A stretch of DNA of 64,000 nucleotides from Thermococcus sp. 4557. Lineage in GTDB: Archaea > Methanobacteriota_B > Thermococci > Thermococcales > Thermococcaceae. The stretch covers positions 992,001 through 1,056,000 of the forward strand of contig NC_015865.1 of NCBI RefSeq assembly GCF_000221185.1, given 5' to 3'. The notes beneath the pieces were generated by a model. The model saw only the letters and a program-made list of their open reading frames with translations. It was not told the origin of the DNA and ran no database searches. Shown in pieces: positions 22,339 to 23,752 of this stretch. Position 1 is the first letter of the stretch. Each line of letters begins with the position of its first letter. A program made the translations under genes and the position numbers.

Positions 22339-22995
22339 ATGGTAGAGGGCGGCGAAACCAAGGCCAACCAGCTCATCAACAAATTCGTCATATCCCTGAC
22401 GGATGGGAAGATACTGGGCTTTGTGACCGATATAAACGTCGAGGTTGAGGGCGACCAGTTCTACTTCATCCTCAAGATGAAGGAAGTGGAGAACCTCGGA
22501 AAGGGCCAGAGCATGTTCTCCAGCGAGAGGAAGCTCAAGATAAGGCCGGACGATATAGTCAACGTTGGTCCCGACGTCATAATCCTTGGAAACGGTAAAG
22601 TCCCGCCCCTCAGGGAGATAGAGAGGCTCAACCAGATAGCCGAGGAGTACAACACCCTGGTGAGGGAGCTTGAAGCCAAGGAGAAACTCATAGAGAAGCT
22701 CAAGGGGGAGAACTACGACCAGACCAAGCAGCTGGACGAGCTCCAGCGCGAGCTCAGGAAGCTGCAGATAATGAAGGAGGACTTCGAGCACCTCAAGGAG
22801 CAGCTGGTAAGGCAGGAGGGGCAGCTCGAGATGGCCAAGGAATACATACGGCTCCTGGAGGGCCTCAGGCACGACATAGACAAGATAAAAGAGGACGTTG
22901 ACAGGCTCCTTCAGACCCAGCTGGAGGAAGTCGTTAGGGGAATAATCAACGAAGAACTGAACGCAAGGGGATTAAAGAAGACGAGCTTTATTTAA
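22339..22995 (+). CDS. PRC-barrel-like domain with coiled coil
   Basis: 218 residues. The first 90 look like a PRC-barrel or similar small beta domain (FVISLTDGKILGFVTDI, then LKIRPDDIVNVGPDVIIL), followed by a long coiled coil (about 95-205). No membrane helix. ATG 22339 follows GGTGGTG. Its stop overlaps the Sec61-beta stop from the other strand. Function unknown; archaeal PRC-barrel proteins have been linked to RNA metabolism and cell division. Confidence 0.75.
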   Translation: MVEGGETKANQLINKFVISLTDGKILGFVTDINVEVEGDQFYFILKMKEVENLGKGQSMFSSERKLKIRPDDIVNVGPDVIILGNGKVPPLREIERLNQIAEEYNTLVRELEAKEKLIEKLKGENYDQTKQLDELQRELRKLQIMKEDFEHLKEQLVRQEGQLEMAKEYIRLLEGLRHDIDKIKEDVDRLLQTQLEEVVRGIINEELNARGLKKTSFI

Positions 22996-23162
22996 CCGAA
23001 GAGCTGCGGGCCAAAGGCGTGCAGGAGTATCTCCAGGGCCACGAGTATGAGCGTCACCGCAATGACGCCCCTCGGGCTTATCTTTATCGCCCTGGTGTCC
23101 TCGTCGAAGAACCTCATGAGACCGGCACCGGTCGGGGGAAGTGTGGTCTTCTCCTTTGCCAT
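22992..23162 (-). CDS. secG: preprotein translocase subunit Sec61-beta
   Basis: 56 residues. Small subunit of the SecYEG/Sec61 channel. Cytosolic N terminus MAKEKTTLPPTGAGLMRFFD, then GIKISP-like basic segment IKISPRGVI and one membrane helix (about 34-50). ATG 23162 has GAGGTGAGAG upstream, and a TATA (TTATATATT on -) lies near 23195-23205. It is too short to be picked up by a 60-residue cutoff. Confidence 0.9.
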   Translation of the reverse strand: MAKEKTTLPPTGAGLMRFFDEDTRAIKISPRGVIAVTLILVALEILLHAFGPQLFG

Positions 23163-23263: not shown

Positions 23264-23280
23264 CATCAAGATTTTTGATG
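23264..23280. promoter_or_regulatory. inverted repeat CATCAA-N5-TTGATG upstream of TATA
   Basis: A perfect 6-bp inverted repeat ending 7 bases before the TATA element at 23288. This upstream position suits an activator site or a regulator of the leader-bearing gene. Confidence 0.4.
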
Positions 23281-23287
23281 ACAATGT

Positions 23288-23296
23288 TTATATAAC
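23288..23296 (+). promoter_or_regulatory. TATA box driving the long leader
   Basis: TTATATAAC, predicting transcription from about 23315, some 120 bases before the coding start at 23438. Confidence 0.55.
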
Positions 23297-23315
23297 ATAA
23301 GAACGAGCATCCAAA

Positions 23316-23437
23316 CAGCAGGTTCTGTCTGGGTGAATCCCAACCGGAGCGCCCGGAAGCCAGCGACCCTTTTCACCCGGCGGTGCTCCCTCTGACACTA
23401 ACGCATGAAACTTTATTGGTATATAGGAGGTGTTCGC
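23316..23437 (+). ncRNA. structured 5' leader, riboswitch candidate
   Basis: About 120 nt between a good TATA box and the coding start, long for this group. It folds as a small hairpin GGG-TGAAT-CCC (23331-23341), an 8-bp stem GGAGCGCC/GGTGCTCC (23346-23353 with 23382-23389, one G-U pair) extended inward by CGG/CCG, and a possible closing TGTC/GACA. The ribosome site GGAGGTG (23427-23433) is downstream of the fold. I cannot place it in a known riboswitch class. Confidence 0.45.
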
Positions 23438-23752
23438 ATGCCGATGTACCTCGTCACCCACCGCTATTCGGATGAAGAGAGCATCAAAGCAACCAGGGAA
23501 GCTGCCGATTTCTTCAAACGGCTACCCCTCACGGGCGATGTCGAGTTCCTCGCATCGTATAATTTCGCCGGCGGAAGCTACACGATGTGGCGGGCCAAGG
23601 ACAGAAAAACCCTCGAAGAGTACATGAAAACAATAGATGCCCCAACATTCCATAAGAACATGGAGATCACCGAAATAGTCCAGAGCTATCCCCCAACGGT
23701 CGAGTACACCATCAGGCTCTGGGAGATGCTGTACCACATGAGCGGCGGCTGA
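23438..23752 (+). CDS. small alpha/beta protein, DUF4242-like
   Basis: 104 residues, soluble. The beta-alpha-beta pattern (MYLVTHRYSDEES, then VEFLASYNFAGGSYTMWRA) resembles ferredoxin-like dimeric alpha/beta-barrel proteins such as DUF4242, one member of which binds nickel in Streptomyces; the resemblance is weak. ATG 23438 has GGAGGTG 5 bases upstream. The long structured leader suggests regulated translation or transcription. Function unknown. Confidence 0.7.
   Translation: MPMYLVTHRYSDEESIKATREAADFFKRLPLTGDVEFLASYNFAGGSYTMWRAKDRKTLEEYMKTIDAPTFHKNMEITEIVQSYPPTVEYTIRLWEMLYHMSGG

Follow-up and report, generated by a model that had tools for sequence, protein, structure and literature searches.

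Promoter and predicted leader

Does the stretch between a promoter and a small gene of Thermococcus sp. 4557 encode a regulatory RNA and, if so, of what kind? The locus lies in a window of 64,000 nucleotides, positions 992001-1056000 of a 2,011,320-base single-contig genome, whose gene content includes Sec61beta, ribosomal protein S6e and an aIF2 gamma-like protein. Specifically, a gene for a 104-amino acid protein (23438-23752, + strand, ATG start) and the leader that precedes it are flanked by the genes for Sec61beta (opposite strand, 22992-23162) and S6e (23861). Positions are those of the window, and the features of the leader described below are on the + strand.

A sequence-only reading of this DNA had proposed a TATA element at 23288 and a leader of about 120 nt in a group whose leaders are normally short. 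Read directly, the predicted promoter contains the TATA box TTTATATA at 23287-23294, and a TATA-like box is found 150-170 nt 5' of the start codon in all 26 of the 26 homologous leaders. In T. onnurineus, ~27 nt separate the centre of the TATA box from the start site downstream (PMC5316973). Applying this rule, transcription is predicted to start near A23317 (an A after C, within about ± 4 nt), which corresponds to a leader of ~121 nt before the start codon at 23438. The median 5' UTR of T. onnurineus is 12 nt (PMC5316973). At ~121 nt, a length that depends on a predicted start site, the leader would be unusually long. No reading frame is conserved across the leader, whether as a leader peptide or as an N-terminal extension of the protein.

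The CATCAA/TTGATG repeat that had been noted upstream of the TATA box is present (23264-23269/23275-23280) and is kept in the closest relatives only. Just 5' of the TATA box, the inverted repeats vary among relatives and include TTGTTAT/ATAACAA and TTTTGCTAAAT/ATTTAGCAAAA (L018 and L022 among the loci). These differing repeats may be distinct operators of a transcription factor.

Crossing helices in the leader

Two helices cross in the leader as an H-type pseudoknot consisting of a 9-bp P1 and an 8-bp P2, both defined by pairing and by double changes over 28 sequences and their tree. The leader alignment further revealed two conserved unpaired motifs that flank the helices. The first, GTTCTGT (23322-23328), is YYCNR-like in relatives and lies directly 5' of P1. 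It is followed by the 5' strand of P1, CTGGGTGAA (23329-23337), by an 8-nt loop, L1 (23338-23345; 7-15 nt in relatives), by the 5' strand of P2, GGAGCGCC (23346-23353), which has the Shine-Dalgarno (SD) region as a possible alternative partner, and by an 18-nt loop, L2 (23354-23371; 13-23 nt in relatives). The 3' strands of P1, TTCACCCGG (23372-23380), and of P2, GGTGCTCC (23382-23389), are separated by 1 nt in the window and by 1-3 nt in relatives. The second unpaired motif, TCTGACA (23391-23397), is TCTRRCA-like in relatives. A helix P0 joining the two flanking motifs (TGTC/GACA in the window) was rejected as it is broken in relatives.

A MAFFT alignment over all lineages puts the 3' strand of P1 in the wrong place. 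The helices were therefore placed by hand and tested using strand swaps and the tree. With registers chosen by hand for pairing, which inflates the counts, and with sequences that are related to one another, pairing in P1 over the 28 sequences was 90.1% as compared to 66.0% when whole 3' strands were swapped (0/1000), and P1 contained 75 double-change cells as compared to 29.5 by chance (0/1000); for P2, pairing was 91.5%, double changes occurred in five of the eight pairs, and the double-change cells numbered 12 as compared to 5.1 by chance in strand swaps (1/1000). On the protein tree, double changes that replaced one standard pair with another occurred 10 times in P1 and seven times in P2.

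The comparison of lineages yielded a similar picture. The letters of P1 are wholly different in other genera and the pairing is kept, as in AGAAGGGGA/TCCTCTTCT and AGGAAGAGA/TCTCTTCCT. When 5' strands of P1 from the window lineage were combined with 3' strands from another lineage, the mean pairing score was 10.1 versus 19-21 within lineages. A model built without the window lineage placed its top match correctly in most leaders of that lineage and also recovered both paralogous copies of the RNA described below. Within the window's lineage alone, covariation is weak because the helices are too uniform there. Not every pair is kept: in four relatives, for example, the third pair of P2 is A.C. 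Covarying pairs across orthologous leaders, suggested at the outset as a check, were found in the form of compensatory changes in both helices. Two crossing helices that each carry such changes are the hallmark of an H-type pseudoknot, and by this comparison the leader almost certainly contains a pseudoknotted RNA.

The secondary structure that had been drawn from the single sequence was partly sustained. Its 8-bp stem, 23346-23353 with 23382-23389, is exact and covarying, and constitutes P2, half of the pseudoknot. Its nested hairpins did not hold up: neither the GGG-TGAAT-CCC hairpin nor the inner CGG/CCG extension is conserved, most of their bases belong to the crossing helix P1, and P1 itself (23329-23337/23372-23380) was missed. 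Folding of the leader as a single sequence gave no signal (z = 0.06) because a pseudoknot is outside the folding model. The predicted structure is visible through comparison only.

Distribution and linkage to the gene

The 104-aa protein occurs in 25 of 94 genomes of Thermococcaceae (26 copies, four of six genera), and the leader DNA was matched in 13 of the 94. All 26 gene copies share the same order of elements: TATA-like box, pyrimidine motif, crossing helices, TCTRRCA-like motif, a spacer of ~30 nt, SD and gene. From pseudoknot to start codon, the distance varies little (42-51 nt). Searched with two covariance models, genomes without the gene gave no clear copy of the RNA. Similarly, the models found no clear copy anywhere in genus g3, which we take to be Pyrococcus. 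Across 115 genomes of the phylum, a profile search located the protein in this family alone, and no relatives outside the family were found there; the genome collection gave Thermococcus-like records only, and viral contigs gave none. Weak extra matches to the models in G080, G087, G063, G061, G009 and G078 were rejected as coding-like or as having neither promoter nor pseudoknot. Separately, L108 (G080:C1:21500-27000) contains a replication factor C small-subunit-like gene, apparently with an intein carrying a homing endonuclease.

The leader and the gene stay together across several distinct genomic contexts. The neighbouring genes differ between lineages, so the context provides no hint of a ligand. 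In the other-context copies L117 and L125, a tRNA gene is found close upstream of the leader on the opposite strand; these tRNA genes may mark how the leader-gene unit moved.

Among 15 close relatives, sequence identity was 79% in the RNA core, 71% in the gene's first 300 nt, 60% in the spacer to the SD and 49% in the pre-promoter stretch, and in 88 of 105 pairs the core surpassed the coding region in conservation. In L023 (G023:C1:656054), the leader is 87% identical to that of the window and the protein 62%; the coding part of G023 seems to have been replaced in place behind a retained leader. Moreover, the gene is broken by a stop codon or frameshift in L026, L037 and L039, and the leader in front of it still looks intact. 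With a fold that is better preserved than the gene, the pseudoknot leader is a good candidate for a novel RNA switch in archaea.

An extra copy of the leader was found in each of two related genomes, L106 (G079:C4:47517-47806) and L107 (G084:C1:262845-263090), with E values of 3e-6 and 3e-5 in the covariance model search. Each copy has a separate TATA box, and its P1 and P2 helices are good. The gene behind them, in a locus between mfnA-like and thiD-like genes, encodes an unrelated 49-aa membrane peptide; it is frameshifted in L107 and intact in the other genome. Where a riboswitch serves different genes that answer one signal, the same RNA would be expected before each of them; here the RNA precedes one second gene type, in two related genomes and broken in one of them. 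Elsewhere, relatives of the 49-aa peptide are not preceded by such a leader, which suggests that the two copies were probably acquired. By these comparisons, the pseudoknot leader looks like a portable unit. Small proteins with a single membrane span (~60-80 aa) are scattered across Thermococcaceae (L129-L142), and in G079 and G075 a member of this single-membrane-span family lies ~10 kb from the 104-aa gene.

Possible alternative pairing of the Shine-Dalgarno region

The SD of the 104-aa gene reads GGAGGTG and is followed by TTC (23426-23435). Within this region, GGAGGTGTTC, the segment GGTGTTC (23429-23435) is a near copy of the 3' strand of P2, so the 5' strand of P2 is able to pair with either. 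Specifically, GGTGTTC can form 7 bp with 23347-23353. In the window, this pairing is better than at 93 of the 99 listed GGAGGTG sites of the same genome. In all 15 of the 15 members of the window lineage, the alternative ranks 0-7 of 99 and so beats 92 or more of the other listed GGAGGTG sites of the window's genome, and the energies of P2 and of the P2:SD pairing are close in several genomes of this lineage. A T follows GGTG in 26 of 26 homologs as compared to 23 of 99 other listed GGAGGTG sites.

In genus g4, SD mimicry ranks 30-59 of 99, no better than background. In addition, the two paralogous copies have different SD sequences (GGAGGAGTT and GGAGGCATGG), and the P2:SD alternative is absent from them. 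On this basis, the exchange, a candidate expression platform that would link the fold to expression, is possibly specific to one lineage.

The mimicry of a P2 strand by the SD in the window lineage suggests a translational on/off switch. As a mechanism, we give SD exchange slightly less than even weight. The leader RNA would form the 5' end of the mRNA for the SCO4226-like protein, with transcription driven by a TATA promoter of its own, and would act as a riboswitch-like sensor, most likely controlling translation. With the pseudoknot formed and stabilised by a ligand, the 5' strand of P2 would be locked, the SD would be free and translation would be on. With the pseudoknot not formed, the 5' strand of P2 would pair with the SD and translation would be lowered. 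In this scheme, we infer the transcription start, the regulation, its on/off direction and the ligand.

The encoded protein

The 104-aa protein appears to be a remote relative of the SCO4226-like (PF14026) dimeric alpha/beta-barrel proteins. PF14026 matched weakly in seven of 20 family members (best E 3.8e-4), and another member, the one with a listed score, stayed below the gathering cut-off at 12.3 versus 28.5 bits. The protein of the window itself matched nothing in Pfam, which, together with the scored member below the cut-off, distinguishes it from the SCO4226 family. In fold and motif order, it is similar to SCO4226 of Streptomyces, a nickel-binding ferredoxin-like protein. The AlphaFold model has a pLDDT of 84.5, and its resemblance to a dimeric alpha/beta-barrel is weak. 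The proposal that the leader precedes a small ferredoxin-fold-like gene was borne out in the model in this sense, as a remote likeness to the SCO4226 family. The affinity of SCO4226 for nickel is low (PMC4186839). By analogy, metals would be among the first ligand candidates for the leader, which is at most a hint.

Interpretation of the leader

The comparison of leaders establishes, at the level of sequence, the pseudoknot and its placement, and shows that it is inherited together with the gene and that a further copy sits at a different gene. A riboswitch calls for conserved, covarying structure in a 5' leader between promoter and gene, and such structure was found here, in a leader whose position is predicted. 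The initial suggestion of a structured leader and riboswitch candidate is well supported at sequence level by the covarying helices, the fixed position between promoter and gene, the strict gene linkage and the extra copy before another gene; its hint of cobalamin is rejected. The leader RNA is very probably cis-regulatory. We consider it moderately probable, from the comparative data, that it is an orphan RNA of Thermococcaceae, riboswitch-like and cis-regulatory, that contains an H-type pseudoknot and controls translation. A small molecule or ion as its ligand is evenly balanced in our estimation. More tentatively, the leader may represent a new riboswitch class of one hyperthermophilic archaeal family, in which a small molecule or ion is sensed by a pseudoknot aptamer that, in at least one lineage, switches translation by P2-SD exchange.

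The linkage to the gene could also reflect a pseudoknot bound by a protein that represses or releases translation; this could be the 104-aa product, regulating its own gene, or a different RNA-binding protein. The RNA always accompanies the 104-aa gene, and the ferredoxin-like/dimeric alpha-beta-barrel fold suggested by the model belongs to a class that includes RNA binders. However, the 104-aa sequence is acidic, and the proteins remotely related to it bind ligands or metals (PMC4186839). One copy type, moreover, precedes the unrelated membrane peptide, and leaders are intact where the gene is broken, though this decay may be recent. Overall, we consider binding of a protein unlikely.

The position of the pseudoknot at the extreme 5' end and its regular distance from the start codon would also suit a constitutive structure, such as a stability cap, a ribosome standby site or a temperature-sensitive fold, that has no specific ligand. 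Such a structure appears quite unlikely: the unpaired YYC (5') and TCTRRCA (3') motifs are conserved beyond the needs of a plug, and the element accompanies a single gene family rather than being found before many genes.

Finally, this promoter might serve an independent small RNA, with the gene located downstream by accident. Stable leader-derived RNAs of this kind, sRk28 and sRkB, occur in Thermococcales (PMC3124441, PMC4247193). In several contexts, the leader nevertheless keeps strictly to the start of this one gene at nearly constant spacing, every copy is followed by a spacer and an SD, and no conserved U-tract lies 3' of the structure. An independent small RNA is thus improbable.

Relation to known RNAs

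At the gathering threshold of Rfam release 15, the window and the homologous loci matched only tRNA and 5S rRNA. Comparison of a 341-nt stretch with Rfam up to E = 10 returned one meaningless match (10.2 bits versus a cut-off of 53.5). The search against RF00174, the cobalamin riboswitch, which the sequence-only reading had suggested, gave no match at the gathering threshold or up to E = 10. A diverged cobalamin riboswitch, proposed from the fragments GGTGAATCC and GAAGCCAG, resembles the leader by a few letters in the window and its close relatives and can be set aside with near certainty: RF00174 is unmatched at every threshold tried, the core is missing, as that reading had itself recognised and which already refuted the idea, no covariance model matched, and the fragments lie in L1/L2 and P1, are not conserved outside one subgroup and are missing from other genera that retain the pseudoknot.

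The riboswitch-like pseudoknot leader RNA appears to be a previously undescribed element that matches no Rfam family. No published description of it was found in the literature searched, which left out most subscription journals. To our knowledge, very few structured leader RNAs have been described in archaea. At the time of the T. kodakarensis transcriptome paper, there was no direct experimental support for in vivo riboswitch regulation in archaea (PMC4247193). A compact, covarying pseudoknot with a defined gene partner, present in relatives of a genetically tractable species, would make the question of archaeal riboswitches testable. The leader could also help to reveal the role of the family-specific SCO4226-like protein.

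Like the candidate riboswitch RNAs crcB RNA and sRk28/sRkB, the element is a leader-encoded structured RNA in Thermococcales (PMC3124441, PMC4247193). Those RNAs precede other genes (TK0513, PAB1992 and PAB0571) and are set apart from it by genes and distribution. The element also resembles H-type pseudoknot riboswitches such as preQ1-I, SAM-II and fluoride/crcB in being a compact 5' leader with crossing helices and few conserved unpaired bases before one small gene. It differs from these in having no Rfam match and longer helices (9 and 8 bp). Compared to H-type riboswitches, it has a long loop between the 5' strand of P2 and the 3' strand of P1, and 1-3 nt between the two 3' strands. Moreover, its SD is located ~37 nt downstream of the pseudoknot rather than within it.
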